Below the pieces are notes generated by a model that had not been told where the DNA came from, made no database searches, and saw only the letters and a list, made by a program, of their open reading frames with translations. A stretch of 64,000 bases of DNA from a virus, in IMG/VR virus record IMGVR_UViG_3300021093_003900, positions 1 through 64,000 of that record; one strand, 5' to 3'. Within the stretch, counting starts at the first letter, position 1. Every line of letters begins with the position of its first letter. A program made the translations under genes and the position numbers. Shown here in pieces: positions 6,382 to 42,823 of the stretch.

Positions 6382-6798
6382 TTATTTTTGAATTATATTG
6401 TTTGTTTCTGAACCAAAACCATATTTAGCTTTTACTCTTTGTGAAATTGGAATTGGATTACCGTCCTCATCAATCCTTACAAAGGTAATGTAGGTTGATA
6501 ATATCGTTGTTTGATTTCCTGTGTATACATTATGAGTCCTTGCTTCGATGTAAAGTTTTAAAGAAGTATTTCCAATCGTATCAACTTTACCATACACTTT
6601 GAGTAAATGACCTTCTCTTGCTGGTTTTTTGAATAAACATTCATCTATTTTAATTGTAACCATACGAGGTGTATCACACACTTGCATAGCCAAAGAAGCT
6701 CCAGCAGAATCCAACCATTTTAGTAATGTTCCACCAAATAGATTTCCGTGAAAACCTAAATCTGATTTTTTTACAGGATGTGTCGATATGAGTTCCAT
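6382..6798 (-). CDS. Hotdog-fold acyl-CoA thioesterase (YciA-type)
   Basis: 138 aa, the usual length of single-hotdog thioesterases. The N-terminal motif GFHGNLFGGTLLKWLDSAGA matches the active-site helix of YciA/BFIT-type enzymes (Asn/Asp before FGG, Asp in WLDSAGA), followed by VTIKIDECLFKKPAREGHLL and ILSTYITFVRIDEDGNP. These enzymes hydrolyse acyl-CoA to free acid and CoA in the cytoplasm. It is expressed from a near-consensus Bacteroidota promoter that ends five bases before the ATG. It is unusual in a phage; it may alter host lipid or CoA pools. Confidence 0.88.
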   Translation of the reverse strand: MELISTHPVKKSDLGFHGNLFGGTLLKWLDSAGASLAMQVCDTPRMVTIKIDECLFKKPAREGHLLKVYGKVDTIGNTSLKLYIEARTHNVYTGNQTTILSTYITFVRIDEDGNPIPISQRVKAKYGFGSETNNIIQK

Positions 6799-7572: not shown

Positions 7573-7606
7573 ATTTAAAATATAAAATACTTTTTTTGTA
7601 AATCAA

Positions 7607-7614
7607 ATATTTAT
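7607..7614 (+). promoter_or_regulatory. Late-type box for the gene at 7624
   Basis: ATATTTAT nine bases before the ATG, followed by an A-rich leader. Confidence 0.5.
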
Positions 7615-7623
7615 TTAAAAAAA

Positions 7624-8472
7624 ATGAGTAAAAAAATTTATTTGACTGAATCTGAACTCAGAAAGTTAATTGGTCGTGTAATTAAAGAACAAAGTATGGG
7701 TGGAATGCTAACTCCACAAGCGTTTGCACAAGCCTCCGTAGAAGCAGGACAACTAATTAAAAAAGGTGTGTCGACTGCCTTTTCCGATGTAAGTAAGAGA
7801 ATTTGGGATTATGTTGCACGTATAAAAAAATTGGCAATTATATTTCCAGATATGACAGATGAAAAGGAAAGAATAGCTGCAAGTTATATGCATAAATATT
7901 TACCAATCTTTGCAAACCAAGCGGGTTGGACTTCATACGTTTTAAATTCTTTAACAGGGTATAATAGATTAATAAGTACATTGAGTAGTAAGGGTGTAAA
8001 ATTAGACCAACTTATAATTGGCTCTCATGGTGACGGGAAACATTTACTTATGACTAATAACGATGGTGTCGCAAACGCTGATTTTTTATCAAGTATTAAA
8101 AATATAATAACAAATCAAACTATCATTTATTTTACAGCTTGTTATGGTGCAGACAGCCTTAGACTATTGTATGACGCTGCTTGCAAAACTAATACTACCG
8201 TATATGCTTCAACTGGTGTCAATTATTTTAGTTTTGGCTCTGAAAAAGGATTTTACTCATGTTCACCAAAACCATTATTACCAGAAGATAGAAAACAATA
8301 CGACGATTGGGACTATGCAAAAAAGGCAAAGGGTGGTGAACGTGCATATAATGAACTTTTATTAAGAGGTGGATACTGTAAACCTGTTTCTAGTCCACCT
8401 CCATGGTTTGTAGTACCGGGAGCTATGGGGGGAATAGTAAAACCTATTGCGAAAGCTTTAGGGTATGAGTAA
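7624..8472 (+). CDS. Caspase-fold-like (His/Cys dyad) protein with capsid-targeting-like N-terminus, 282 aa
   Basis: Residues 1-22 (KIYLTESELRKLIGRVIKE, then QS) form a short amphipathic helix ending in IxE, like the T4 internal-protein targeting peptide. Residues of about 65-200 have the core of a DUF4347/CHAT-like alpha/beta domain: LDQLIIGSHGDG with H135 and IIYFTACYGADS with C173, the spacing expected for the His/Cys dyad of clan CD peptidases. The C-terminus is Pro-rich and hydrophobic. The protein may be packaged in the head and delivered to the host; the peptidase activity is inferred from the motif only. Confidence 0.65.
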   Translation: MSKKIYLTESELRKLIGRVIKEQSMGGMLTPQAFAQASVEAGQLIKKGVSTAFSDVSKRIWDYVARIKKLAIIFPDMTDEKERIAASYMHKYLPIFANQAGWTSYVLNSLTGYNRLISTLSSKGVKLDQLIIGSHGDGKHLLMTNNDGVANADFLSSIKNIITNQTIIYFTACYGADSLRLLYDAACKTNTTVYASTGVNYFSFGSEKGFYSCSPKPLLPEDRKQYDDWDYAKKAKGGERAYNELLLRGGYCKPVSSPPPWFVVPGAMGGIVKPIAKALGYE

Positions 8473-8508
8473 GAATGATGGGTAATTTGAAATAAAGAAA
8501 ATTTAAAG

Positions 8509-8516
8509 ATATTTAT
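8509..8516 (+). promoter_or_regulatory. Late-type box for the gene at 8530
   Basis: ATATTTAT 13 bases before the ATG, with an oligo-A leader; a TTTG at 8487-8490 could act as an upstream element. Confidence 0.45.
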
Positions 8517-8529
8517 TAGAAAAAAAATT

Positions 8530-9330
8530 ATGAACGCATATTTCGTAGGGATCACTCAACAAGAAAAAAATAACATTCTGGATCAACATAAGAAAATTTA
8601 TGATGGGTACAGATTAGTTCAACAAAACAATACTGAACCACAACCTTTGTATGTTCAAGATTTTGCAAACGACAAGGATGGTTTTGTTGTAAATAATAAG
8701 GGTGATGTAAAAAAATATACAAATATGGGTATCAATGAATCTCAAAAAGATTTTGAAACTATTGAGATGGAGGAAGATGATTGTGTTGAATGTGGCATGA
8801 AGGAAACTTACGAAGATATGTATATGGATCAACCTTCGGAGGAAGATTTTCAAGAAATTGGATTTGAATTTGAAAAACCAATAACTATCCGTGGAAATGT
8901 ATACCACAACACAGGTGACCTCGAAAGGGGTGAAAATATAAATTTAGGAAGTATAATGAACACAGAGGATGGTCTTAGATTTATGTCTATGTCAAACAAA
9001 CCAGAAGGATTAACCCTAGATGAGTTAGTAGACCTTTTAAACCCAATGGATATGGGTGATGCTCATGCGTATCGTGATGATATGGATATGCACCCAGAAG
9101 CGGATGAAATAGATTTAGAAGATTTGTATGCGGCATCCGAGTTTTATGATAAGTTAAAATCAGGTGAGGGACAAAAACCAAGTGATCGATTAAATGAACC
9201 GTCGGACGAGAAAGACAACAATTGGATGTTTGTTGAAGATGAGTTTACGGAGAGTGAAGACTTGGATGAATCATTTTACACACAAAGAAACAAAATACTT
9301 GAAATGTTTCAAAGAACGTCTAGGTTTTGA
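8530..9330 (+). CDS. Acidic hypothetical protein, 266 aa
   Basis: The N-terminal 25 residues (GITQQEKNNILDQHKKIYDGY) form a helix of a type that recurs in unknown proteins of related large phages. Residues 35-75 are a small beta-rich part, and from residue 78 the protein becomes strongly acidic (EMEEDDCVECGMKET, MDMHPEADEIDLEDLY). The C-terminus turns basic (RNKILEMFQRTSRF). It is monocistronic with its own box. It could be a core or scaffold component; no function is known. Confidence 0.65.
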   Translation: MNAYFVGITQQEKNNILDQHKKIYDGYRLVQQNNTEPQPLYVQDFANDKDGFVVNNKGDVKKYTNMGINESQKDFETIEMEEDDCVECGMKETYEDMYMDQPSEEDFQEIGFEFEKPITIRGNVYHNTGDLERGENINLGSIMNTEDGLRFMSMSNKPEGLTLDELVDLLNPMDMGDAHAYRDDMDMHPEADEIDLEDLYAASEFYDKLKSGEGQKPSDRLNEPSDEKDNNWMFVEDEFTESEDLDESFYTQRNKILEMFQRTSRF

Positions 9331-9396
9331 GAATTTTCCGTGAGTTTTTTGTAGATCAAATTTAATGGGAAATATTGATTTTTTTAAAAAAATGAG

Positions 9397-9404
9397 ATAT
9401 TTGT
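9397..9404 (+). promoter_or_regulatory. Late-type box for the gene at 9419
   Basis: ATATTTGT 14 bases before the ATG; a TTG 19 bases upstream of GATATTTG makes this one resemble the host-type promoters too. Confidence 0.45.
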
Positions 9405-9418
9405 AAGAAAAAAAAATT

Positions 9419-9721
9419 ATGGAAATAAGAGAAATTTTGGAAACTAACTTGGTCTCAAATAATTTGGAGGTCAAATTTAGAATAGACGAGGACACCGATG
9501 AAGTCATAAGAACTTACACATTTGATTTGGATGTCATTTTGGAATATGGTTACGACATTTTTCCAGAACCATTGGATATGACCGATATGGATGAAGAGTA
9601 TTTGGATGAGGAATATGAAATGGAAGAATTCGAAACAGAAATCGATGAAAGTGAATTGACATTGTTTATGAATGAATTTTTTTCGATAACTGAAAAACTT
9701 CCTGAAGCCGAAAGTTATTAA
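9419..9721 (+). CDS. Acidic small protein, 100 aa
   Basis: Begins MEIREILETNL and continues with a predicted strand pair (LEVKFRIDEDTDEVIRTYTFDL). Residues 55-85 are a run of Asp, Glu, Met and Tyr (DEEYLDEEYEMEEFETEIDE), and a short hydrophobic helix follows at the C-terminus. No family is recognised. It lies in a series of single genes, each with its own late-type box. Confidence 0.6.
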   Translation: MEIREILETNLVSNNLEVKFRIDEDTDEVIRTYTFDLDVILEYGYDIFPEPLDMTDMDEEYLDEEYEMEEFETEIDESELTLFMNEFFSITEKLPEAESY

Positions 9722-9725
9722 TTGA

Positions 9726-9733
9726 ATATTTAT
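9726..9733 (+). promoter_or_regulatory. Late-type box for the gene at 9739
   Basis: ATATTTAT five bases before the ATG. Confidence 0.45.
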
Positions 9734-9738
9734 AACTT

Positions 9739-9978
9739 ATGAGTGATATTGATATAAATTACTACATAAGAATGTTACGTTCTTTGATAGGTAATAAGGT
9801 TGAATTTGAAGAACAAGATACTGGTGGTACTGCAACTAGCTCAGGCCCACCACCAGCGTACCCAACGGTCACCAAATGGGAAACAGGGATCAAAAGAGGT
9901 TCCGCAAACCAGATAGGTAATACCAAATGGAAAGATTCATATACCATAACAAGAGGTAAAGCGAATACTTTATTATAA
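9739..9978 (+). CDS. Small hypothetical protein, 79 aa
   Basis: An N-terminal amphipathic stretch (INYYIRMLRSLIGNKVEFEE) is followed by a Gly/Ser/Pro linker and a basic tail with two similar WxxxxxxxRG units (TKWETGIKRGSAN and TKWKDSYTITRGKAN). The size and basic tail are consistent with a minor virion or DNA-associated protein, but nothing specific is recognised. It has its own late-type box. Confidence 0.55.
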   Translation: MSDIDINYYIRMLRSLIGNKVEFEEQDTGGTATSSGPPPAYPTVTKWETGIKRGSANQIGNTKWKDSYTITRGKANTLL

Positions 9979-9982
9979 TCAG

Positions 9983-9990
9983 ATATTTAT
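9983..9990 (+). promoter_or_regulatory. Late-type box for the gene at 10002
   Basis: ATATTTAT 11 bases before the ATG with nine A residues between. Confidence 0.5.
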
Positions 9991-10001
9991 CAAAAAAAAA
10001 T

Positions 10002-11132
10002 ATGAAAATCACGAAAAATAAAAAATATTTGTATTATAACGATACAATAGTTGATACTGAAACTTTTGAAAAATACGAAAATATTAGTAGCAATCCATTA
10101 ATTGTTTGTGAAGTTTTACAAAATCAATGTGAATATTTTTACAAAAATAGAATTATTAGTGAAGAAAAAATATTTGAGATAATTCAAAATTTGTCATCTT
10201 CTTTTTTGAGTTTAAATGAAATTGATTTTATGACTTATCAAGTAAGGTTTGGATTAAAATTACTTACTGAAAAAACTCAAAATAATTTAGAATCTGGATT
10301 AAAATTAATTGAGGAAAATTGGGAATACATAAGAGAAAAACTTGTAGAATATTATGAAAATAGTACAAACATCAAATTATTAAATGAAACCTCCAAAAAT
10401 ATAAAATTACTTTTTTCTGATGAGAAATTTAATTGGATTTTTGAAGGTGTATACGATACTACTAATTGGGTAATGACTAAAATTGAAGATTTTTTACTTA
10501 GTTTAAAGGGTGTTGCTCTGTCAACTTTTTTAATGTCTCTAGGTATTGGTGTAGTCACTAATGTTGTTATGTGGGGAGCAATAGCTGTTTGGAAAATCTA
10601 TAAAATAATTGCTGGGAAATTATCGAATTCTATGGAAAATTGGTTTGATGTTGCAATTTGTTTAGTAGGTGCAGTTTTTGGTGGGGCTGTAAAGTATTTA
10701 AAAACTGCAATTAAAGGTATTAGTTTTGCTGCAAAAAATTTAAGGAGAATGAAATCTTTACAACCCATCAGAGACTTATTGAATTTAGGTTCAACCAAAG
10801 TTACCACTATCTTAGAATCATCAAAAAACTTTTTAAAAAAATTACGTGTTTCTGGTGTTGATGGAATTTTTTCCAAAGTGGGTAGTTGGTTAACAAATTT
10901 TTTTGAAAAAATGATGAATTTTTTGAATGACCCAAAAACATCTAAAGCGGCATTGAATACTGTAGCAGCATCTGCTGTATATGTCGGACTTGATAAAGCG
11001 ATTGATAAAATGTTAAAATCAAAAGAAAATAAAAAAAATAAACAAAATAATTCTGAGTACGAACAACTCGGCCAAACGATGGGAAATGTAGACGATCCAG
11101 AATTAGATGATATTTATAACGATGATAACTAA
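10002..11132 (+). CDS. Membrane-associated hypothetical protein, 376 aa
   Basis: Residues 1-160 are helical and Asn/Glu/Lys-rich; hydrophobic segments follow at about 170-200 (LSTFLMSLGIGVVTNVVMWGAIAVW) and 213-232. The remainder is basic, with a second hydrophobic patch near 325, and an acidic C-terminus (DDPELDDIYNDDN). It begins a three-gene transcript with the next two plus-strand genes. The layout resembles injected pilot or internal head proteins, but this is inference. Confidence 0.65.
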   Translation: MKITKNKKYLYYNDTIVDTETFEKYENISSNPLIVCEVLQNQCEYFYKNRIISEEKIFEIIQNLSSSFLSLNEIDFMTYQVRFGLKLLTEKTQNNLESGLKLIEENWEYIREKLVEYYENSTNIKLLNETSKNIKLLFSDEKFNWIFEGVYDTTNWVMTKIEDFLLSLKGVALSTFLMSLGIGVVTNVVMWGAIAVWKIYKIIAGKLSNSMENWFDVAICLVGAVFGGAVKYLKTAIKGISFAAKNLRRMKSLQPIRDLLNLGSTKVTTILESSKNFLKKLRVSGVDGIFSKVGSWLTNFFEKMMNFLNDPKTSKAALNTVAASAVYVGLDKAIDKMLKSKENKKNKQNNSEYEQLGQTMGNVDDPELDDIYNDDN

Positions 11133-11133
11133 T

Positions 11134-12597
11134 ATGGATTCACAATCAGAAATACGGAAACACATTGATTTTGTTATATTGATCAATCAACAAATACTTA
11201 TTGAAACAATAAAACAAATTGACAGACCAATTATAACGGAAAGTAAAGGAAATTTGATAAAACTGTTCAAAATTTTTCTCACAGATAAAAATTTATTCAA
11301 AGCAACTTTACCAAAACTTAAAAACGTAACTTTTTTTAAGAATGTTAATTCAAGAAGGGATTTAGCAACTGTATTAAAAAATTTATCCCCCTTAGAGTAT
11401 AAAGGTGCATTCAAACAATTTATAGATCAGCTTAGTGGTAATGATAGAAGCGCATTTATAAAAGGATTATTTAATGGAAAAGAAGATTTGATCAATAGAG
11501 TTTTAAACAATGCCTCAAATGGAAAAAATTCAGCACTGAAACGATTAACTAATTACTATGAAAATTTAGGACTAACTCAAAACGAAATTGCTGAACAATT
11601 TACTATGGCTACAGGTAAATACGCGGATGATGTTGCCAATTTAATTTACAATAGTACTAAACAAAGTGGTAGTCTAGCTAAACAAACGAAGATGGGAAAG
11701 CTACTTGACACACTAAAACCAAACACAAGAACTAAAAAAATTACAATTCCATGGAAGTTAATTGGAATTGTTGCTGGTGGTGGTGGGTTAATATGGTTAT
11801 TGAATAAATGGGGTGATGATACTGAAATTGTAGATCCTAATGGAAATCCAATAGATCCAACTACACCCTCAGGCTCGCAAGAAACAACTACCCCATCAGG
11901 TTCGCAAGAAAAAACCACAAATATAGTTGCAAAAGATGATGTTTTACCGTCTAAAGACGAATTTGTATTATCATATCCAAATGACAAAAATTGGAGATAT
12001 ATTTGTAAAAACGGAAATTGGTATGCTAGATCTATAGTTAATGGACAAATACGAAATTTAAATTGGGGTGTCAAGAACGGATATCCGAGATGGCAAATTT
12101 CAATAGATAGATTAAATAAAACGTATCCAAATGCTTGTAAAACAACAACTGGAACAACTGTAACAACAACTGGAACAACAACTGGAACAACAACTGGAAC
12201 AACAACTACCACACCAAATCGTATAGGAGCTAATGTGGATAGTTTAGTAAAAGTAGATACATCAAAATACCCTGGAATCTACAACAGACCTCAAGATCAG
12301 TTTACGTTAACACCACCAAGTAGTGACGGGGTAGTTCTGGGAGGATCGGGAGAACAACAAAGAGAACCACTAGTGATTGAACCCACACAAATTAATCTTA
12401 CTAGAGAATATTGTAGAAATTTGTATTCATCTATTGAAAGAAATGACCAAAAAAGTGGTAGAAAAACAGCAACACCAAAACAGTTAGGTGAGGTCGAAAG
12501 ATGCTTACAACAATATAACATTTTCAAATTAGCTGCTTTAAATGTAAGAAATAGGTATGGTTATACTATGTCTGGTGGCGACAAAGGAATAAGATAA
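11134..12597 (+). CDS. Large Thr-rich hypothetical protein with one membrane segment, 487 aa
   Basis: Start set at MDSQSEIRKHIDF, one base after the upstream stop; an earlier ATG at 11107 would overlap by 26 bases. The N-terminal part contains PIITE|S, a possible prohead-protease site. A hydrophobic segment (WKLIGIVAGGGGLIWLLNKW) lies near residue 210, followed by Ser/Thr/Gly linkers, a small globular part (WRYICKNGNWYARS) and a TTGTTTG repeat tract. It may be a virion or injected protein that spans a membrane. Confidence 0.65.
   Translation: MDSQSEIRKHIDFVILINQQILIETIKQIDRPIITESKGNLIKLFKIFLTDKNLFKATLPKLKNVTFFKNVNSRRDLATVLKNLSPLEYKGAFKQFIDQLSGNDRSAFIKGLFNGKEDLINRVLNNASNGKNSALKRLTNYYENLGLTQNEIAEQFTMATGKYADDVANLIYNSTKQSGSLAKQTKMGKLLDTLKPNTRTKKITIPWKLIGIVAGGGGLIWLLNKWGDDTEIVDPNGNPIDPTTPSGSQETTTPSGSQEKTTNIVAKDDVLPSKDEFVLSYPNDKNWRYICKNGNWYARSIVNGQIRNLNWGVKNGYPRWQISIDRLNKTYPNACKTTTGTTVTTTGTTTGTTTGTTTTTPNRIGANVDSLVKVDTSKYPGIYNRPQDQFTLTPPSSDGVVLGGSGEQQREPLVIEPTQINLTREYCRNLYSSIERNDQKSGRKTATPKQLGEVERCLQQYNIFKLAALNVRNRYGYTMSGGDKGIR
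12139..12210 (+). repeat. 12-bp coding repeat (Thr-Thr-Thr-Gly tract)
   Basis: About five imperfect copies of ACAACAACTGGA encode Thr/Gly linker residues inside the 487-aa protein. The repeat number is likely to vary by slippage. Confidence 0.75.
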
Positions 12598-12612
12598 ATA
12601 AATAAAAATTAT

Positions 12613-13269
12613 ATGAAAAATATATCACGAAGTCTAAAACGTAATATTTCTGAAATTAGAGAAAAAAAAAATAATCTTATCATAGAACATAGTATTGTTC
12701 AATCAAGATTAAAATTTGTTCTAGAACAAGAATATAAAAATAATGACGCTAAATTTATTGCTCTACTTGAAGAAATAATAAATTTAGAGGAACAAGGTTA
12801 TAATTTATCTCTAATAAATGAAGAAGAGTTTGATTTTTTTTCAATGTTAGGACGTATATTTGGGGGGTCATTTACATCAATATGGGAAGTTTTAGGTGAA
12901 AAAATGGCAGATTCTTTAGCCGACAAACTTCAGATCAATAAAACTAATTGGGTTTATAATGTGATTGTTTCGTTTATTACAAGTGTGAATTGGAGAAACT
13001 ATGGTAAATTATTTACAGATTGTAAATTTTTGACTAACGGAATTTCCGACGCAGTAATTGAAGGTACACTTAGACAAATGCAAAAAGAAAATGTTGATGA
13101 CGAAAATATTGGTGGTTATGTACTCAGCGCTTTAAGAAATTCAATAATGAAAGAGTTTGCTGAAAGAAAAGACTCTTTAATACAAAAATTGGAGGATATT
13201 ATCGGTGGAATAATTTGCGGTCAAGTTTCTAAGTGGAAATCTAATATAGCCAAAATTAACATCGAATAA
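12613..13269 (+). CDS. Hypothetical protein, 218 aa
   Basis: A basic helical N-terminus (MKNISRSLKRNISEIREKK) leads into a coiled-coil-like region, then a Gly-rich hydrophobic patch (FSMLGRIFGGSFTSIWEVLG) at about residue 75 and a C-terminal hydrophobic segment (LEDIIGGIICGQVSKW). It follows the 487-aa gene after 15 bases, and the three genes 10002-13269 appear to be one unit with similar amphipathic and hydrophobic architecture. No family is recognised. Confidence 0.62.
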   Translation: MKNISRSLKRNISEIREKKNNLIIEHSIVQSRLKFVLEQEYKNNDAKFIALLEEIINLEEQGYNLSLINEEEFDFFSMLGRIFGGSFTSIWEVLGEKMADSLADKLQINKTNWVYNVIVSFITSVNWRNYGKLFTDCKFLTNGISDAVIEGTLRQMQKENVDDENIGGYVLSALRNSIMKEFAERKDSLIQKLEDIIGGIICGQVSKWKSNIAKINIE

Positions 13270-13275
13270 CAATTT

Positions 13276-22710: not shown

Positions 22711-24582
22711 ATGAATAAAAATGTGATTATCGGTATCGACTTAGGTACCACAAACTCGGCGGTAGCAATTATTGAAGGTGGTCAACCTATCGTGGTTGCT
22801 AATTCAGAAGGTAAGAGAACTACACCATCGATTGTTGCTTTTACTGATAAAGATCGAAAGGTTGGTGATCCTGCAAAAAGACAGGCGGTAACCAATCCAG
22901 AAAAGACAGTCTTTTCAATAAAAAGATTTATTGGTAAAGATTTTGATAAATGTAAAGCAGAGTCAAAAAAAGTTCCTTACAAAACAACCAAAACATCAAC
23001 TGGTCTAGTTGGTGTAAAAATTGATGATAAGACATATACACCACAAGAAATTTCAGCAACTATTCTACAGAAAATGAAAAAAACAGCTGAAGATTATTTG
23101 GGTTATGAAGTAACTAGAGCGGTTATTACGGTACCTGCTTATTTCGGTGACCAAGAAAGGAGTGCTACTATTGAGGCTGGTGAAATTGCTGGATTGAAAG
23201 TTGAAAGGATTATTAATGAACCGACAGCTGCAGCATTGGCTTATGGTTTAGATAAAAAATCAAAAGATTCTAAAATATTGGTATTTGACTGTGGTGGTGG
23301 AACTCATGACGTATCGGTACTTGAAATTGGTGATGGGATTTTTGAAGTAAAATCCACTGATGGTGACACACATTTGGGTGGCGACGATTTTGACAACGCA
23401 ATTATCAATTGGATGACATCTGAGTTTCAAAATGAATATGGTATTGATCTTACAAAAGATCCAATGGCCCTCCAAAGAGTTAGAGAAGCCGCTGAAAAAG
23501 CAAAAATTGAATTGTCGTCATCTTCAAACAGTGAAATTAATTTACCTTACATTACTGCTCGTGAAGGTGTTCCTGTTCACTTTGTTAAATCATTACCAAG
23601 AAGTAAATTTGAACAACTGACAAAAGATTTGGTTGACAGAACAATTGCTTGTGCGAAAAAAGCTCTTAAAAACGCTAAATTAAAACCATCCGAAATTGAT
23701 GAGGTTGTTTTAGTTGGTGGATCTACTCGTATTCCAGCAATCCAAGAAGCGGTTGAGAACTTCATTGGTAAAAAAGCAAATAAATCAGTTAATCCTGATG
23801 AAGTTGTGGCTTTGGGAGCTGCTATACAAGGTGCGGTTCTTACTGGTGATGTAGATGATGTACTACTTTTAGATGTTATTCCATTGTCATTCGGTATCGA
23901 AACTATGGGTGGTGTGATGACAAAAATTATTGAAGCTAATACAACCATTCCAATCAAAAAACAACAAACATTCTCAACCGCTGTTGATAATCAACCAACT
24001 GTGGATATTAATGTACTACAAGGTGAAAGACCAATGGCAAATGATAACAGATCTTTGGGTAGATTTTTCTTGGAAGGTATTACACCAGCACCACGAGGTG
24101 TACCACAAATTGAAGTTACAATTGATATCGATGCAAATGGAATTCTTCATGTCACCGCAAAAGACCAAGCGTCTGGTAAGGAAAATAAAATCAGAATTGA
24201 AGGTGGTTCTTCACTAAAACCAGAAGAAATCGAAAGAATGAAACGTGAAGCTCAAGAAAATTTGGAACAAGATAAATTGGCACAACAAAGAGTTGAATTG
24301 TTCAATCAATGTGATAATCAAATTTTCAACACGAAAAAAAATATGGAAGAGTGGAAAGATAAGTTTACTGAAGAACAATCTACGAAGTTAAATGAATGTT
24401 TGGAAAATTTAGAGAAAGCTTATTCTGAACGAAATGAAGAAAATTGTAAAGAACATTCGGAAAAACTTAATAAAGTCTTTATTGAAGTTTCGAACGAAAT
24501 ATACTCAACAATGAAACCAGAAGACGACATGAATACTACAAATGATATTCAAGACGTTGAATTCACAGAAGTAGAAAAGTAA
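22711..24582 (+). CDS. dnaK: Hsp70 chaperone DnaK, 623 aa
   Basis: Full-length Hsp70: phosphate-1 motif [30 protein letters not shown], phosphate-2 region [13 protein letters not shown], adenosine motif [13 protein letters not shown], the linker [18 protein letters not shown], then substrate-binding and helical lid parts and a C-terminus DVEFTEVEK like the bacterial EEVDK tail. DCGGGTHD deviates from DLGGGTFD at two positions. No DnaJ or GrpE gene is in the window, so host partners may be used. It folds or disaggregates proteins with ATP. It is divergently paired with clpC. Confidence 0.95.
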
Positions 24583-31427: not shown

Positions 31428-34229
31428 ATGGAAGATAAAAATTTAACAATATGGCAAAGACTTTCCCAAAGTTTTGGGCCTAACTCACTTCTAGGTCAGG
31501 ATTTACCTACATATAAATTTGATAAGAAAGAATTACTCAGAACGCAAAGTAAGGATGAATATGAAAAACAAAAACTTCAAGCACAACAAACTTACTATCT
31601 TGTAAGTCAATGGGCTAAAGTTGAAAACAATTTATACAACCAAGCGGTATACTATGAACCAACAAGATTGGCATCATACTATGATTTCGAAAGTATGGAA
31701 TATTCGTTAAGTTCTGAAACACTCATAGCAACACCTGATGGTTTTATAACAATAAAAGACCTTGCAGATAAAGGTCGAGATTACGAATTTATTGTATATG
31801 CTTACGATCATAACACCGAAAAAGTTGTACCCGCATTAGCAAGGAACGCTCATTACACACGTGATGAAATGACGTATAAAATTACATTTGATGATGGGTC
31901 ACACATAATTGCAACATATGGTCACAGATTTTTAAAACGTGATGGCGTTTTCGAGGTTGTTGAAAACTTAAAACCCGGTGATTCTATGATGCCATTTTAT
32001 CGTAAATCATTTTTTGATAATCAAAATTATAATTGGGTATATGTGTGTAATTCTAATGAAGGACATCACGGATGGGTTTCTGAACACAAATTAATTGCTG
32101 AATGGTATTACGACAAAAAAGTTAGTGTTGACGAAGAAATTCATCACAAAGATTTTAATGGTAAAAATAATAACCCTGAAAATTTGCAAATTATGAATAT
32201 TTCAGAGCACAGGGCTTATCACAGAAAATTGAATAATGAAAAACTTTGGGCTAATCCAGAATTCAGAGAAAAAATGTCAATTGTTGCTAAAAAAAAGGGA
32301 AAACTAAGTTGGAATGGGAGGAGAGTGGGTGTCAAGAACCCGTCTTATTTTCACATACCCTACGATTTAATAGTTCAAAAAGCTACTGAGCATAAAACTT
32401 TAATGGGTACAGCTTCGGCACTTAATATTTCATACAAAAAATTACAAAGAGAAATAACATATGCTGGGTATAAAGATTGGAGTACTTTTTGTTTTGCTTA
32501 TGGTATTGGAAAATCGAAATATTCAATCGCTAAGGTTAAAGGTGATAGTTATGTTTTTAACCATAAAATTGTAAGTATTGAACCGCACGGAGTTGTGCCA
32601 GTGTATGACTTGAGTGTACCTGGATATAAAAACTTTGCAACTGACACCATATTTTCCCATAACACACCAGAAATCGCGTCAGCATTGGATACATATGCTG
32701 AAGAATCAACCACCGTTGATGAAAATGGTTTTATGTTACAGATTTATTCTGATTCGCCCAGAATAAAATCTATTCTAGCGGATTTATTTAATAACGCTCT
32801 TGACATCAACACAAACTTACCGATGTGGACACGTAATACCGCCAAATATGGTGATAATTTTGTGTTTCTGAAATTAGACCCTGAAAAAGGTGTTGTGGGT
32901 TGTTTACAACTACCTAACATTGAAATAGAAAGAATTGAGGTAGGAATGAAAGGGAGAGCAACCTCAGGATTTGGAGCTGCACAAGCATCCAACGCCGATA
33001 CAAAAAGTTTAACATTTACTTGGAAAAACAAACAACTGGATTTTAATAGTTGGGAAATTGCCCACTTCCGATTGTTAGGTGATGATCGTAAATTACCTTA
33101 CGGAACAGCGATGACCGAAAAAGCAAGAAGGATTTGGAAACAATTGGTATTAGCTGAGGATGCAATGCTTGTTTATCGAACATCTAGAGCCCCTGAAAGA
33201 AGGGTATTTAAAGTTTATGTTGGTAATATGGACGACGCGGATGTTTATCCATATGTCCAAAGATTTGCACAACAATTTAAAAAAGATCAGATTGCAGACC
33301 CAAAAACAGGTAATGTTGACATGAGATTCAATCAGATGGCGGTAGACCAAGACTTTTTTATCCCTGTTAGAGATCCTGCAGCACCTACACCAATTGACAC
33401 TTTAGCTGGTGCTCAAAATCTGTCAGAGATTGCAGATATCGAGTACATTCAGAAAAAACTCTTGACGGCACTTAGAATTCCGAAAGCATTTTTAGGATTT
33501 GAGGAACCTGTTGGTGATGGTAAAAATTTATCACTACAAGACATTCGTTTTGCAAGAACAATTAATAGAATTCAAAAGTGTATGATTTCGGAGTTAAATA
33601 AAATTGCTATTATACACTTGTTTTTACTTGGTTTTGAAGATGAACTTGGTTCATTTCAATTATCACTGACTAATCCATCTAAACAAGCCGATTTACTCGC
33701 AGTAGAAGTTTGGAAAGAAAAAATGTTATTGTATAGAGATTGTGTCACTAAAATTGAAGGTATTGCACCAGTATCTCAGGCTTGGGCCAAAAAACACGTT
33801 CTTGGATTTTCAGATGATGAAATCAAACTTGATTTACAACAACAAAGAATGGAAATGGCGGTAGCGACAGAACTCACAAATACGCCTAATGTTATTAACA
33901 GAACAGGTATATTTGACAGTATCGATAAGTTGTACGGAAAACAAGTTATGAGTGGAGAATCATCAACCACAGGTACACTACCTATGGGTGGTGTAGAACC
34001 ATTACCTCCTAGTGGTGGTGGATTTGGTGGAGATATAGGTGTGGGTGGAACACCACCACCACCTCTAGGGGTACCCACATTAGCACCAGAAAGTAGGAAA
34101 AAAACACCAAACATAATCTTAGAAAGGATGGAAATAGAAAATAGAGAAGAAATAGATTTTGACAAAGGTGAAAAAATATTATCATCAATTCAAAATGAGT
34201 TGGACAAATTATCAGATGAAACTATTTAA
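31428..34229 (+). CDS. Portal protein (T4 gp20-like) interrupted by an intein, 933 aa precursor
   Basis: The exteins join DFESMEY (ending at residue 92) to TPEIASALDTYAEES (from residue 413), the conserved portal segment, giving a mature portal of about 613 aa. Portal features in the C-extein include WTRNTAKYGDNFVFL, SWEIAHFRLLGDDRKLPYG and AGAQNLSEIADIEYIQKKLL. Residues 93-412 are an intein (listed separately). The C-terminus is Pro/Gly-rich. The portal forms the dodecameric ring for DNA passage; splicing is required for a normal product. Confidence 0.94.
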   Translation: MEDKNLTIWQRLSQSFGPNSLLGQDLPTYKFDKKELLRTQSKDEYEKQKLQAQQTYYLVSQWAKVENNLYNQAVYYEPTRLASYYDFESMEYSLSSETLIATPDGFITIKDLADKGRDYEFIVYAYDHNTEKVVPALARNAHYTRDEMTYKITFDDGSHIIATYGHRFLKRDGVFEVVENLKPGDSMMPFYRKSFFDNQNYNWVYVCNSNEGHHGWVSEHKLIAEWYYDKKVSVDEEIHHKDFNGKNNNPENLQIMNISEHRAYHRKLNNEKLWANPEFREKMSIVAKKKGKLSWNGRRVGVKNPSYFHIPYDLIVQKATEHKTLMGTASALNISYKKLQREITYAGYKDWSTFCFAYGIGKSKYSIAKVKGDSYVFNHKIVSIEPHGVVPVYDLSVPGYKNFATDTIFSHNTPEIASALDTYAEESTTVDENGFMLQIYSDSPRIKSILADLFNNALDINTNLPMWTRNTAKYGDNFVFLKLDPEKGVVGCLQLPNIEIERIEVGMKGRATSGFGAAQASNADTKSLTFTWKNKQLDFNSWEIAHFRLLGDDRKLPYGTAMTEKARRIWKQLVLAEDAMLVYRTSRAPERRVFKVYVGNMDDADVYPYVQRFAQQFKKDQIADPKTGNVDMRFNQMAVDQDFFIPVRDPAAPTPIDTLAGAQNLSEIADIEYIQKKLLTALRIPKAFLGFEEPVGDGKNLSLQDIRFARTINRIQKCMISELNKIAIIHLFLLGFEDELGSFQLSLTNPSKQADLLAVEVWKEKMLLYRDCVTKIEGIAPVSQAWAKKHVLGFSDDEIKLDLQQQRMEMAVATELTNTPNVINRTGIFDSIDKLYGKQVMSGESSTTGTLPMGGVEPLPPSGGGFGGDIGVGGTPPPPLGVPTLAPESRKKTPNIILERMEIENREEIDFDKGEKILSSIQNELDKLSDETI
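31704..32663 (+). mobile_element. Intein with HNH homing endonuclease domain in the portal gene
   Basis: 320 residues. Block A SLSSETLIATPDG starts with Ser1; block B is IIATYGHRFL with the conserved Thr-x-x-His; blocks F and G are VYDLSVPGYKNF and TIFSHN with a terminal His-Asn; the +1 extein residue is Thr. The central part has an HNH motif (EEIHHKDFNGKNNNPENLQI) and a DNA-binding-like tail (LMGTASALNISYKKLQREI). Such elements excise at protein level and home into empty alleles. Confidence 0.93.
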
Positions 34230-35233: not shown

Positions 35234-35683
35234 ATGAAAAAAGGCAAAACCTGTAAATTGAACGGATTTACAAGATTGAAAAGTACGTATGGAACAGTAG
35301 ATTCTAAAACATTTAAATCTTTGTATTTGAACATACAAAGTTGGGTGACACCTCAAAAAAGTGTCGAAAATTGGTCAAGAGTGGTAAACATTCTAAATAG
35401 AGAAATAAAGGAGACCATAAATGAAATTTTAGATCTTACATTATTACAACCAAAATTTATTTTAGACCTAGACCTAAGAACCAGTGGATTAGTTGTTGGG
35501 AAAAAAAGTTTTATGAATTTGGAAATAACATTCTTTGTGGCGAAAAATGTAGAATTCAAATCAACATTACTAAAAACACATCTTCAAAATCTTACATCAT
35601 TTATAAATTCACACAATTTTACAAAAAACACTTACTTTAAATTTGAAAAAACAAAGAAACTGAAAACAATTGATATTATCTAA
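35234..35683 (+). CDS. Hypothetical protein, 149 aa
   Basis: A basic protein (MKKGKTCKLNGFTRLK) with a helical middle (NWSRVVNILNREIKETINEILDL) and a beta hairpin-like C-terminal half (FILDLDLRTSGLVVGKKSFM, LEITFFVAKN). It sits just upstream of the prohead protease. It may be a core or head-assembly factor by position; no family is recognised. The promoter is not clear. Confidence 0.62.
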   Translation: MKKGKTCKLNGFTRLKSTYGTVDSKTFKSLYLNIQSWVTPQKSVENWSRVVNILNREIKETINEILDLTLLQPKFILDLDLRTSGLVVGKKSFMNLEITFFVAKNVEFKSTLLKTHLQNLTSFINSHNFTKNTYFKFEKTKKLKTIDII

Positions 35684-35690
35684 TATTTAT
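35683..35690 (+). promoter_or_regulatory. Late-type box for the prohead protease gene
   Basis: ATATTTAT 14 bases before the ATG at 35705; it begins at the stop codon of the preceding gene. Confidence 0.5.
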
Positions 35691-35704: not shown

Positions 35705-36436
35705 ATGAAAATATTAAGGTCAAACGAAGTAGGTAGAGGAATTTTAATTGAAATGGATGCTGGATATATTTCAGCAACTGATGAAAGAAATTTGAAAGTA
35801 ATTCAAGAACAGAAAACTCAATTAGATCATTCTAAACCTTTTGAATTTTATGCTGTACTTCAAAAGTACAACACACCAAACAGAAATGGTAGAGTATATC
35901 CTGAAGAAATTCTCAAAAGAGAAGCTGAAAATTATAGAAAATTAATCAAAAAGGGAGTGGCTCTTTCAGAACTTAATCACCCAGAATCTTCACTTATTGA
36001 TTTAGATCGAGTATGTCACGTTATTACTGATTTATGGTGGGAAAACCAAATGCTTTTAGGAAAATTAAAATTATTGACATCACCGGGTTTTCACGAGAGA
36101 GGTATCGTTTCAACAAAAGGAGACCAAGCAGCTAACTTACTCAGGCAAGGAGTTACTTTGGGTATATCCTCAAGAGGTGTAGGATCCTTGAAAAAGGTAG
36201 GTGAACAAAATGAAGTTCAGAAAGATTTCGAATTAATTTGTTTTGATTTGGTATCATCACCCTCAACACCCGGAGCGTATCTATTTACAAATATTGATGA
36301 TAAATATTCGTTTGATGAAAATATTGAAGAAGAAAAAAAAATGAGACAAATATCTACTGAATCATCAAATGACGGTAATCCTATGAATCGCTCTATTGAT
36401 TTAATGAATAAATTGAATAACTTTTTAAAAAAATAA
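35705..36436 (+). CDS. Prohead core protease (T4 gp21-like), 243 aa
   Basis: Conserved segments: FYAVLQKYNTPNRNGRVYP, SELNHPESS with the catalytic His (H92), and TLGISSRGVGSL with the nucleophile Ser (S155 or S156), followed by ICFDLVSSPSTPGAYL. T4 gp21 is a serine protease that cleaves scaffold, capsid and internal proteins after (I/L)xE. Its place before the scaffold and capsid genes matches T4 order. The C-terminus (EEEKKMRQISTESSN) is probably self-cleaved. Confidence 0.93.
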   Translation: MKILRSNEVGRGILIEMDAGYISATDERNLKVIQEQKTQLDHSKPFEFYAVLQKYNTPNRNGRVYPEEILKREAENYRKLIKKGVALSELNHPESSLIDLDRVCHVITDLWWENQMLLGKLKLLTSPGFHERGIVSTKGDQAANLLRQGVTLGISSRGVGSLKKVGEQNEVQKDFELICFDLVSSPSTPGAYLFTNIDDKYSFDENIEEEKKMRQISTESSNDGNPMNRSIDLMNKLNNFLKK

Positions 36437-36749: not shown

Positions 36750-36770
36750 ATGGAAAAATTTAATATTTCT

Positions 36771-38459
36771 ATGGCAGACAAAAAGTCATTAGTAGAGGAA
36801 GCACTTCTTCAGATGAAAAATCTTGAAGATGTTGTTACTGAAAACGCAAAAGGAATACTTGCTTCAACTATGAAGGAAGAAATCTCTGAGTTGGTAAAAG
36901 AGTCTTTGAAAAACAAGGCTAAAAATAAATTGAAAGAACAAGACGAACCAGATACTGATCCTGATGATGTGGATATGGATCCTGATGACATGGATATGGA
37001 TTCTGATGATGAAATGGATATGGATCCTGATGATGACATGGATATGGATCCTGATGATGACATGGATATGGATCCTGATGATGACATGGATATGGATCCT
37101 GATGATGAAATGGATATGGAACCTGAGGTTAATATTGACATTGAAGACGATGTGGTGGAAATCCCAGACGACGCTTCAATGGAAGACGTTCTTAGTGTAT
37201 TCAAAAAAATGGGGCCGTCAGATAGAATAATCGTTAAAAAAGAAGGTGATAAAATTCACCTTGACGACGAAGATGAAGATGTTGAATATATCATCTCAAC
37301 TAACGAATCGATTTCAGAAAAAGAACGGATGTCAGATAGGGATTTAGATCGAATTATGAATGATATCTTCGAAGATGAAGATGTAGTCGATGATTTTGAC
37401 GAAGATGACTTGGATGATACTCTTGGTGAAGATATGGATTCTGATATAGATGTGGAAACAGACGAAGTTGTATATGAAATTTCAATGGACGAAGAAATGG
37501 ACGAAGAAATGGACGAGGAAATGTATGAGGGAATGGACGAGGAAATGTATGAGGGAATGGACGAGGAAATGTATGAGGGAATGGATGAGGAAATGTATGA
37601 GGGAATGGATGAAGAAGTAGAGGAAACTATGTATGAGTCCAAGTTTGGTATGAAACCTATTATGTTTTCTAATTGGAAATCAGGAAAAAAATTGGGTTCT
37701 AAAACTGAAACTAAAGAATCTACTACAACAAAACCCAAAGAAAAAGAAAAGGTTGAAACTGGTAAGGAAAAATCAAAAAGTCCTTTCCATAGACCAGGTG
37801 AAAAAACAGCGCCTAAAGCTAAAAAAACCGAAACTAAAGAAGGTATGGGTAAATTCAAACCAAAGGGTACTGGAATGAATCTTTCTCCGAAAAAATTTGA
37901 ATACAAAGAAGGAAAGAAACATGACATATCAGCGGTTGAAAAAAGAATTGCTGGAGCATTCTCCAAAGGTGAAACTAAAGAGGCGGCTAGAACTCTAGGT
38001 AATGGAACAAGAAACTTTGCTCCAAGAAAAGGTCTACCAAAAATGAAAGTGATTCCCAATTCTGCAATTAGAGAAGAAGTTGAATCTTTGAGACAAAAAA
38101 ATGTTGAGTATCAAAAAGCATTGAATGTTTTCAGAGAAAAACTTAACGAAGTTGCTGTCTTCAATTCAAATTTGGCTTACGCTACAAGGTTATTCACAGA
38201 ACATCCTACGTCCAAACAAGAAAAGATTAACATCTTAAGAAGATTTGATGAAGTTGAGACAATTAAAGAATCTAAAAATTTGTACAACGCAGTCAAAAAT
38301 GAATTAACAAATTCAAATAAAAATGTGGTTACTGAATCAATAGAAAAAATCGAAAAAACACATTCTTCAGGATCATCACAAAATTTAATTGAATCAAAAA
38401 CTTATGAAAATCCTCAGTTCATGCGAATGAAGGATATCATGCAAAAAATAAATAAATAA
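36771..38459 (+). CDS. Prohead scaffold-like core protein (T4 gp22 position), 562 aa
   Basis: Start set at MADKKSLVEEALLQMKNLED, 21 bases after the box; an ATG at 36750 is an alternative. The protein is extremely acidic, with two repeat arrays (DPDDDMDM and MDEEMYEG types), a basic middle and a C-terminal coiled-coil part (EEVESLRQKNVEYQKALNVFREKLNEVA) as in T4 gp22. It lies between the protease and the major capsid genes, the gp22 position. Scaffold proteins guide prohead assembly and are degraded by the protease. Confidence 0.82.
   Translation: MADKKSLVEEALLQMKNLEDVVTENAKGILASTMKEEISELVKESLKNKAKNKLKEQDEPDTDPDDVDMDPDDMDMDSDDEMDMDPDDDMDMDPDDDMDMDPDDDMDMDPDDEMDMEPEVNIDIEDDVVEIPDDASMEDVLSVFKKMGPSDRIIVKKEGDKIHLDDEDEDVEYIISTNESISEKERMSDRDLDRIMNDIFEDEDVVDDFDEDDLDDTLGEDMDSDIDVETDEVVYEISMDEEMDEEMDEEMYEGMDEEMYEGMDEEMYEGMDEEMYEGMDEEVEETMYESKFGMKPIMFSNWKSGKKLGSKTETKESTTTKPKEKEKVETGKEKSKSPFHRPGEKTAPKAKKTETKEGMGKFKPKGTGMNLSPKKFEYKEGKKHDISAVEKRIAGAFSKGETKEAARTLGNGTRNFAPRKGLPKMKVIPNSAIREEVESLRQKNVEYQKALNVFREKLNEVAVFNSNLAYATRLFTEHPTSKQEKINILRRFDEVETIKESKNLYNAVKNELTNSNKNVVTESIEKIEKTHSSGSSQNLIESKTYENPQFMRMKDIMQKINK
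36957..37121 (+). repeat. 24-bp-type coding repeat (DPDDDMDM)
   Basis: About six imperfect units encoding Asp/Met/Pro octapeptides in the scaffold-like gene; long antisense frames here are repeat artefacts. Confidence 0.85.
37497..37619 (+). repeat. 24-bp coding repeat (MDEEMYEG)
   Basis: About four near-identical units plus partial ones, distinct from the first array in the same gene. Confidence 0.85.
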
Positions 38460-38490: not shown

Positions 38491-40353
38491 ATGGGTGCAT
38501 TATTAGAAAGCGGTCTAGTTGGTAATATCGGGTTGAAACACCTTAAAGTTATCAAAGAAGACACAATTAACAAGTGGGACAAACTTGGGTTCCTAGAAGG
38601 ACTTAGAGGCCACATGAAAGAAAACGTTGCTCAATTGTATGAGAACCAAGCGTCTTTCTTGATAAACGAAGCTTCATCAACTTCAGACAGCGGTTCATTT
38701 GAAACTGTTGTATTCCCTATCGTGAGAAGGGTTTTCTCCAAACTTTTGGCGAACGATATCGTATCGGTTCAAGCTATGAATTTACCTATTGGTAAATTGT
38801 TCTACTTTGTTCCAAAGATCCAAGGTTATTCTGGTGGTACTTCACCAAACGACTTAGGTTGGTTAGGACAGAGTGGTGACCACTATGCTCCGATCGGTTC
38901 ACCAGGAAACTATCCGGGTAACCAAAATGCGGGTTATACTGCTGGTGATAGTACAGGTGATTACAATCCTTATTACAAAAAAGATCTTTACGATCTATTT
39001 TATGAAGGTGATGAGGCAACTCTTAACCCTCCAGGTCTTTTTGACTATTCAAAAGGTAAATGGACAGCAACAACAGCAACTACAGTAACTGTTGCGTGGA
39101 ATGCTGGTGGAAATCTAGTTGTTTCTGGTTATGGCTCAACTGATTATCGTAAGGTAATCTTGGCTATGAGTGGTTTCTCTAACGCTGGTGCTGGTCAATT
39201 GATCGGACCAAATGGTAATACAATGGACACCGAAGAATTCCTTTCTGGATTAAATATCTTTGGTGTGTATGCCAACACAACAACAGCTAGCCAAGCACCA
39301 GGTGCTGGTAATCCATTCCTTTTCAGAGTTGTAACTCAGAAATATGGTAAAGGTATCGTTCAATACGGATCACAAACTAACACAACATGGCCAATCGGTA
39401 ATAACTCTGGTGGTGCATACAATAATGTATGTGATGCAAATGGTGTTATCTATCTCGAAGTGGATCTTCAACAACCAGTTTGTGTATCTTGTGGACAAAC
39501 AACACCTGATGGTTATACAGGTTCAACATTCTCTTCCTCAACTGCGAATAACAATGCTTTCATTGCTATTTACAGAGTGTACAAAGAACTTGAATTTGAA
39601 GATCAGATTGGTGAGGTTTCTTTTGATTTGGAATCTGTCACAGTTTCTGTTACAGAAAGAAAATTGAGAGCCCAATGGTCTCCTGAACTTGCTCAAGACG
39701 TTTCGGCATTCCACAACATTGATGCAGAAGCTGAGTTAACAGCTCTTCTTTCTGAACAAGTTGCGGCTGAAATCGACAGAGAAATTTTGAGAGATTTGAG
39801 AAAAGGTGCTGCATGGAACTTGAGATGGGATTACAACGGTTGGAAGAGATTAGCTTCTACTGGTACAACCCCTTACACTCAAAAGGACTGGAATCAAACA
39901 CTTATCACTGCTATCAATCAGTTGTCGGCACAAATTCACAAGTCGACATTAAGAGGTGGTGCTAACTGGGTTGTTTGTTCTTCAGAAATTTCTGCGATCT
40001 TCGATGATTTGGAATATTTCCACGTATCGAACGCGGCTCCTGAACAAGATCAATACAATATGGGTATTGAGAGAATTGGTACACTATCTGGTAGATATCA
40101 GGTTTATAGGGATCCTTACTTCCCACCGAACCAACTTATCATCGGACACAAAGGTACGTCATTGTTAGATACTGGTTACATTTACGCTCCGTATGTACCT
40201 CTACAATTGACACCTACAATGTACAATCCATTCAACTTTACACCTATCAAAGGAATAATGACAAGATACGCCAAGAAAATGGTTAACAACCGTTTCTACG
40301 GACGTGTCACATGTGATGGTATTCGTACTTTCGATTTGAGAGAATTGCGTTAA
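38491..40353 (+). CDS. Major capsid protein (T4 gp23-like), 620 aa
   Basis: T4-type features: an N-terminal region probably removed by the protease, FETVVFPIVRRVFSKLLAND, VQAMNLPIGKLFYFVPK, later ERKLRAQWSPELAQD and LTALLSEQVAAEIDREIL, and C-terminal GTLSGRYQVYRDPYFPPNQ. It is about 100 residues longer than T4 gp23, the extra residues lying in a Gly/Thr/Asn-rich region around 130-330. The synonymous usage is less AT-biased than neighbours, as expected for a highly expressed gene. It forms the hexamer lattice of the head. Confidence 0.95.
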   Translation: MGALLESGLVGNIGLKHLKVIKEDTINKWDKLGFLEGLRGHMKENVAQLYENQASFLINEASSTSDSGSFETVVFPIVRRVFSKLLANDIVSVQAMNLPIGKLFYFVPKIQGYSGGTSPNDLGWLGQSGDHYAPIGSPGNYPGNQNAGYTAGDSTGDYNPYYKKDLYDLFYEGDEATLNPPGLFDYSKGKWTATTATTVTVAWNAGGNLVVSGYGSTDYRKVILAMSGFSNAGAGQLIGPNGNTMDTEEFLSGLNIFGVYANTTTASQAPGAGNPFLFRVVTQKYGKGIVQYGSQTNTTWPIGNNSGGAYNNVCDANGVIYLEVDLQQPVCVSCGQTTPDGYTGSTFSSSTANNNAFIAIYRVYKELEFEDQIGEVSFDLESVTVSVTERKLRAQWSPELAQDVSAFHNIDAEAELTALLSEQVAAEIDREILRDLRKGAAWNLRWDYNGWKRLASTGTTPYTQKDWNQTLITAINQLSAQIHKSTLRGGANWVVCSSEISAIFDDLEYFHVSNAAPEQDQYNMGIERIGTLSGRYQVYRDPYFPPNQLIIGHKGTSLLDTGYIYAPYVPLQLTPTMYNPFNFTPIKGIMTRYAKKMVNNRFYGRVTCDGIRTFDLRELR

Positions 40354-42193: not shown

Positions 42194-42823
42194 TTAACAA
42201 TAAGGTGGTGAACATCTTTTTTTACCATCCAATCCTTTAATTTTTCCTTTACAAACTTGAACGCCGTAACCCGAACTATAAGCGCTAGGGTAGACATCAA
42301 ATTTTGCTTTAGCGGCCGATTTACCACGCGCACATAATTTAGTTCCAGTTTTTTTACGACCCTCTTGAACTTGAAGTTGGTTTGATTTAGATTTATTTTC
42401 CAAATATTTGATATACATCTCTAAGTCATTCATTCCAAAATAATCAACATCATTTTCATTAAACCAAGCTAATACATCTTTCCAATTAGTTGTTCGATTT
42501 ATATTTTTTAAACATTCAACTTCACCCCCCATACTAGAGAAAGTCGATTGTTCTTGCATCATATTAGGTTGATTATTAAAATTATTTTTCATAAAATCAT
42601 AAACTTGATCAATTGACTCGGTTGATGATGCAATATGATCTTGAGCCCAATCATGACCATTATCCAATAATTGCTCAACTTGATTTTTATCATATTTTAA
42701 TAATTCACTAGCTTGATCTCTAATTTGTTCCAAGTTGGAAAAAAACATATATCTATCCTCTTGTTCAGATAGAATTTTTGATAGTTTTTCGTATTGTTCT
42801 TTAGTTAAAATAAGTTTTTTCAT
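42194..42823 (-). CDS. Phage protein with Cys-rich C-terminal domain, 209 aa
   Basis: The N-terminus MKKLILTKEQYEKLSKILSE|Q matches the LTExx...(I/L)xE pattern of the candidate capsid-targeted proteins. The middle is helical. The C-terminal 50 residues form a domain seen in many phages: KLCARGKSAAKAKFDVYPSA, YSSGYGVQVCKGKIKG, CSPPYC. The start overlaps the stop of the 493-aa gene as ATGA. The function is unknown. Confidence 0.72.
   Translation of the reverse strand: MKKLILTKEQYEKLSKILSEQEDRYMFFSNLEQIRDQASELLKYDKNQVEQLLDNGHDWAQDHIASSTESIDQVYDFMKNNFNNQPNMMQEQSTFSSMGGEVECLKNINRTTNWKDVLAWFNENDVDYFGMNDLEMYIKYLENKSKSNQLQVQEGRKKTGTKLCARGKSAAKAKFDVYPSAYSSGYGVQVCKGKIKGLDGKKRCSPPYC

Follow-up and report, generated by a model that had tools for sequence, protein, structure and literature searches.

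What does the open reading frame at positions 7624-8472 (+) of this phage DNA encode, and would its product travel in the phage particle? The frame lies in a window of 64,000 nucleotides, the whole stretch analysed here, which is part of a 115,056-base IMG/VR record. From an ATG start it encodes a protein of 282 aa (31.2 kDa, pI 9.3) made up of an N-terminal tag, a helical linker, a clan-CD-like alpha/beta domain and a C-terminal GxC segment. A sequence-only reading had picked out a His/Cys pair in this protein, H135 within SHGDG and C173 within ACYGADS, and both residues are present at exactly these positions. We find that the frame belongs to a family of virus proteins, unnamed until now, in which a head-loading tag is joined to a caspase-like domain, and on account of this combination the protein is probably carried in the particle and delivered into the bacterium at the start of infection.

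The protein as a whole matched nothing in Pfam or PADLOC, its best sub-threshold matches being to NCBIfam ActS (E=0.07), PHROGs (E=0.06) and PDB sequences (E=1.3). For the conserved domain nothing significant was found in PHROG, Pfam, NCBIfam or PADLOC, and no sequence-family library recognised it as a peptidase. The sole tblastn match among named phages was a weak one of Riemerella tape-measure proteins to aa 42-88 (E=1e-3), which we judged coincidental because it falls mostly outside the conserved domain.

The N-terminal tag and the head module

The window carries a T4-type head module with a terminase large subunit, a portal, a prohead protease, an acidic putative scaffold and a gp23-type major capsid protein. 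The protease (35705-36436, +; Pfam Peptidase_S77 E=5.9e-22, phrog_207 E=1.5e-42) is of the T4 gp21 family and is the predicted processor of the tag; between it and the capsid gene lies the putative scaffold (36750-38459, +), which matched no family and is named from its position and composition. The capsid protein (38491-40353, +; phrog_138 E=4.7e-65) begins with about 60 residues ending ...LYENQASFLINE/ASSTSD (here and below a slash marks the junction), giving a predicted cleavage site FLINE/A, and this layout is shared by the close relatives that we checked. In T4 gp23 the 65 N-terminal residues are removed by gp21 (PMC9958956). Among 16 relative records, 7 have a gp23-type capsid protein, and the same 7 have the prohead protease, the records that have no such capsid protein being mostly short contigs. 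Three other genes of the window were noted in passing. The portal gene (31428-34229) holds an apparent intein with an HNH domain at roughly aa 93-411, recognised from HNH family matches and, by eye, from LSSETLIATPDG ... FSHN/T; the gene at 22711-24582 appears by eye to encode an Hsp70/DnaK-like protein with 194 relatives in viral contigs, and a second contig that carries a member of the present family also has a DnaK (L195:5922-7781); and 6385-6798 resembles, by eye, a hotdog-fold acyl-CoA thioesterase, a gene that is uncommon in phages and is conserved in the near relatives.

Residues 1-22 of our protein (7624-7689, +), MSKKIYLTESELRKLIGRVIKE, read as a capsid-targeting-type propeptide. Followed by Q, this N-terminus fits a tag that 46 distinct ORF starts carry in 2.65 Mb of DNA from related phages, compared with 1 match in 18,248 residue-shuffled N-termini, and the tagged starts lead into different bodies, about half of them belonging to one conserved family near the capsid gene. 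A leucine or isoleucine stands two before the glutamate in 40/46 starts and a glutamine follows it in 31/46; since the search pattern demanded a hydrophobic residue at the former position and left the latter unconstrained, the informative parts are the excess of L/I and the free Q. The peptide ends VIKE/Q, and the capsid protein has the T4-like site LINE/A. The T4 prohead protease follows the site rule (L/I)xE, and the tag ends at such a site in a genome that has both a gp21-family protease and a gp23-type capsid protein. That T4 cuts after glutamate has been confirmed (PMC5694885), and T4 internal proteins have diverse bodies with the targeting sequence alone in common (PMC3012670). Additional support comes from the family members in other phages, whose N-peptides differ and yet are of the same kind (LINE/Q, VVNE/Q, ILRE/Q, IINE/Q, FISE/Q, LYE/Q and ILLE/K). 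The motif [IL]xEQ occurs within residues 5-45 in 7/14 of them and in 5.9% of 2187 other proteins (binomial p about 6e-6, with relatives that are not fully independent). At several loci (L180, L183 and L201), moreover, the family gene lies among other genes with tag-type N-termini.

Combined with the gp21-family protease and the matching site in the capsid protein, the recurrence of the tag supports the earlier suggestion of a capsid-targeting-like N-terminus. Packaging is well supported by these sequence comparisons, which make it highly probable that the protein enters the head and is cut there; the cut is predicted to fall between E22 and Q23, and injection into the host would follow. The alternative is that the N-terminal peptide does not target the capsid and that a late protein stays in the cell, for example in envelope modification or phage exclusion. 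It is consistent with the evidence for packaging being sequence-based, the tag having been matched to T4 logic and not to T4 sequence, whereas the recurrence of the tag with its (L/I)xE end and frequent following Q, the matching protease and capsid site, and the occurrence of different tags of one kind in different relatives all argue against it, and we consider it improbable. One further tagged protein deserves mention. A conserved protein, MKTVKLTESDLNRIVKKVLTEQ...NYMFFSNLEQIKRQ, bears the same tag at about 25 T4-type loci, where it is encoded near the capsid gene, on the minus strand and a few kb after it (L008, L011, L024, L028, L052, L065 and others); it is probably a core internal protein.

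A conserved dyad in a probable clan-CD-like domain

A search with back-translated patterns from the single sequence returned an identical contig as its sole match. Scans of DNA for FTAC[YH]GAD and FTACxGAD gave 13 further distinct phage relatives, on contigs of 7 to 430 kb and with 24-35% identity to the window protein in a 14-row alignment; because of these relatives the dyad is more than a chance observation, and we regard the family and its dyad as real with near certainty from the alignment. Twelve positions are invariant in 14/14 (G133, H135, G136, F170, T171, A172, C173, G175, A176, D177, G198 and C213), among them the order His-Gly ... Ala-Cys that is the signature of clan CD, with a His-to-Cys spacing of 38-57 residues. 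The proposed catalytic histidine (codon 8026-8028, +; GSHG) and the proposed nucleophile C173 (codon 8140-8142, +; FTACYGAD) are joined by a second invariant cysteine, C213 (8260-8262, +; FYSCSP), and by a third conserved one, C252 (8377-8379, +; GGYC), present in 13/14 members, the exception being a truncated contig. With that contig set aside, the segment separating C213 from C252 varies widely in length, from 18 to 191 residues.

The last viral scan for members made no additions. Two records from a 50-record search with the window protein were rejected as relatives of the domain, L166 being a portal match and L167 a match to the tag only. In cellular contigs, pattern scans gave 8 and then 26 matches, none with both motifs: the 8 failed tblastn, the His half of the motif is absent in all of the 26, and the best-scoring ones read as response-regulator-like proteins. 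Within the family several members depart from the common architecture. Two (L178:12518-13603 and L172:653-1753) begin with an additional domain of about 160 aa, after which come an internal tag-like stretch (SIKESVLKEG, NIKEQ) and then the caspase-like domain; two others (L175:3137-3910 and L179:191-964) have a zinc-ribbon-like CxxC...CxxC segment between tag and core, which a shorter relative (L171) is without; and one (L176:4113-4771) is apparently split over two reading frames. The gene immediately upstream of the relative in L192 shares 43% identity with a putative structural gene of the window (42823-44301).

AlphaFold2 models built with the 14-row alignment have a mean pLDDT of 69 for the window protein and 71 for the L192 relative. 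In the window protein a helical linker of low model confidence (aa 23-66; 7690-7821, +) leads into the conserved alpha/beta core (aa 69-213; 7828-8262, +; defined by alignment and model), with strands b1 at 69-74, b2 at 102-106, b3 at 127-134, b4 at 162-170 and b5 at 193-196. In both members the elements run strand-helix-strand-helix-strand(H)-helix-strand(C)-helix-strand, and the His and the Cys come directly after successive strands, H135 at the end of b3 and C173 directly after b4. The blocks holding the strands that lead to the two residues have pLDDT 92-93, and the ten-residue blocks that hold the residues themselves about 67 (window protein). The sequence-only reading was to fall if H135 and C173 were not adjacent in a predicted fold, and we observe that both follow successive strands of one domain.

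Fold searches gave a mixed answer, the clan-CD-like strand order appearing in the models while matches to caspase folds stayed below significance. Foldseek against the PDB returned no match at E<=0.001, only mixed alpha/beta folds, the top 50 of which repeatedly include caspase-family proteins (CED-3, caspase-1, metacaspase and MALT1), not significant and beside other alpha/beta folds. In a search of viral models the best two matches (E=4.5e-4 and 2.1e-3) are without a functional name and 4 of the top 50 are annotated as caspase or C14, and such proteins recur, below significance, in all three fold searches. The comparison with DUF4347 (PF14252) was clearer. Using a DUF4347 profile built from bacterial genomes, HHalign paired histidine with histidine and cysteine with cysteine across 73 columns, unforced and with the following strand in register, at a score of 25.3, compared with at most 20.2 in 200 column shuffles and 12.5 for the reversed profile. 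The single-comparison E was 0.0034 for the family profile (0/200 shuffles as high), and most single members gave the same register, one of them at E=4.5e-5. These results point to remote homology with DUF4347, the dyad being in register, and PF14252 passed its Pfam cut-off in 0/14 members and nowhere in the phage's own genome. Peptidase_C14 (PF00656) fared worse, with no Pfam match and a best HHalign alignment to bacterial C14 that is out of register. Taken together, model topology and the unforced profile alignment agree with the earlier proposal of a clan CD or DUF4347-like dyad arrangement; the fold class is well supported, and a clan-CD-like fold is likely. Families of clan CD are united by structure and the His-Cys dyad and not by sequence (PMC12445089).

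What this domain would do depends on how its conserved residues are read. C213 and C252 match the dyad in conservation, lie outside the classic clan-CD site, and flank the variable insert, where they may form a disulphide or bind metal. An alternative is thus a packaged and injected protein that is no protease and would bind and thereby inhibit a host enzyme. Its domain would be a clan-CD-like pseudoenzyme or a metal-stabilised binding domain, with some of H135, C173, C213 and C252 coordinating zinc or joined in a disulphide. The invariance of C213, the presence of C252 in every complete sequence and the lack of any peptidase family match would fit such a protein, as would the example of the T4 internal proteins with known targets, which inhibit restriction enzymes (PMC12373910). 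However, the residues keep the order and motifs of clan CD (HG, then AC and then G) and not those of a zinc motif, and T171, G175, A176 and D177 near C173 are invariant in an active-site-like manner, so that we hold this alternative to be unlikely. We think that the domain is somewhat more likely than not to be catalytically active.

An exchangeable cassette

Two copies of ATATTTATT flank the gene, and the same motif is also found ahead of head genes. The left repeat, ATATTTAT at 7607-7614 (+), is a candidate late promoter, and the right one, at 8509-8516 (+), stands before the next gene; near relatives have one copy and no intervening gene. Three near relatives are without exactly ORF 7624-8472 and have matching DNA on both sides, 92-99% identical in two of them and about 80-90% in the third, so that window positions 7624 and 8509 abut. 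As the empty join has one ATATTTAT(T/A) and the window two, the inserted unit is one motif plus one ORF.

In the window 12 starts have ATATTTAT no more than 30 nt upstream, compared with 0.45 expected, among them those of our ORF, the prohead protease, the putative scaffold and a putative structural gene (sites include those at 7607-7614, 8509-8516, 9726-9733, 9983-9990 and 35683-35690). It also precedes relatives in L181, L195 and L188, and is not universal upstream of the family (4/13 loci tested). From its placement we infer that the motif is a late promoter; it differs from T4's TATAAATA. The surrounding region (7600-13270; L272, L274 and L276) is a hypervariable island where near-identical phages have had genes swapped. 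An alternative gene in L274 and L276 has another type of tag (MSYDSKKTLSENVEEILSEQ), a peptide ending ILSE/Q, and at 10002-12597 of the window two adjacent proteins with membrane-spanning stretches, the first preceded by the motif, are possibly further internal or ejection proteins.

These observations describe ORF 7624-8472 as an exchangeable, accessory cassette that is gained and lost as a promoter-plus-ORF unit, the gene being accessory because it is absent from near-identical phages. PeSLs are described, in a work cited in PMC4503421, as promoter-borne early cassettes that shuffle genes of T4-like phages; the present cassette would be a late-gene counterpart. Its accessory nature also bears on whether the protein might be a maturation enzyme that cleaves scaffold or other core proteins within the prohead, and not a host effector. 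The protein would be targeted to the core, where the gp21-family protease acts (PMC9958956), and cysteine peptidases often require removal of a propeptide (PMC12445089). However, the phage already has its gp21-family protease, and three near relatives with the neighbouring genome in common lack the gene, which a search of 49 related records also failed to find; it is therefore not needed for head assembly, and we consider a role in the prohead very improbable.

A proposed injected peptidase and its meaning

The reading that we lean towards as a whole is that of a late internal head protein that loses its tag at E22, is injected, and has as its body a clan-CD-like domain, probably a protease. 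According to this reading the gene would be expressed late in a T4-type phage, and the first 22 residues would target the protein to the prohead core, where the gp21-family protease would cut after E22 and remove the tag. The remaining basic protein of 28.5 kDa would be packaged alongside the DNA and injected into the host, and there H135 may serve as general base and C173 as nucleophile of the caspase/DUF4347-like domain, most likely a cysteine peptidase that would cleave a host or defence protein early in infection. Catalysis and target are proposals, and action on host defence specifically is a tentative suggestion. More speculative is the proposal that environmental T4-type phages have a family of virion-packaged, co-injected cysteine peptidases that destroy host defence or regulatory proteins on entry and are moved between phages as single promoter-plus-ORF cassettes when a repeated late promoter recombines; this we regard as possible and rather doubtful.

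Each half of the design is known separately. IPI, IPII, IPIII and Alt of T4 have a capsid-targeting sequence, are processed by gp21 and are co-injected. With them the protein shares an N-terminal propeptide ending in a glutamate site, a genome that also encodes a gp21-family protease, accessory genes at variable loci, and the character of a small basic protein; however, its tag sequence differs from T4's and its body is a clan-CD-like domain, unlike the T4 internal proteins with known targets, which are inhibitors. T4 Alt is an ADP-ribosyltransferase. With clan CD (caspase C14, metacaspase, legumain C13 and clostripain C11) it shares the order of the dyad motifs and, in the models, their placement after successive alpha/beta strands, and it differs in the extra conserved C213 and C252 with the variable insert between them, and in having no significant sequence or fold match. 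DUF4347, in the examples used here, is part of long open frames from cells (about 800-4600 aa) and has YGC where our family has TAC-x-GAD, and we found no demonstrated activity for it. The sporulation peptidase YabG has been proposed as a member of clan CD through its His-Cys dyad and Ala-Cys motif, with no sequence homology (PMC12445089); it is cellular and without a capsid tag, and resembles our family in dyad and Ala-Cys by description. Searches of the open-licence literature brought up neither the tag nor any packaged clan-CD protein, in line with the earlier remark that no characterised phage protein of such design was known, and by sequence the joining of a packaged internal protein to a clan-CD-like domain appears to be new.

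If true, a head-packaged caspase-like enzyme would mean a catalytic disarming of the cell before any phage gene is expressed. Three T4 internal proteins enter the cell by injection and inhibit type IV restriction enzymes (PMC12373910), and in contrast to such blocking of restriction enzymes a packaged protein of this kind would act by catalysis. The family supplies 14 sequences in which a candidate active site can be tested, and the near-identical phages whose sites are cleanly empty provide natural pairs with and without the gene for the study of its function. Moreover, the recurring tag offers a simple route to listing the injected proteins of large environmental T4-type phages.
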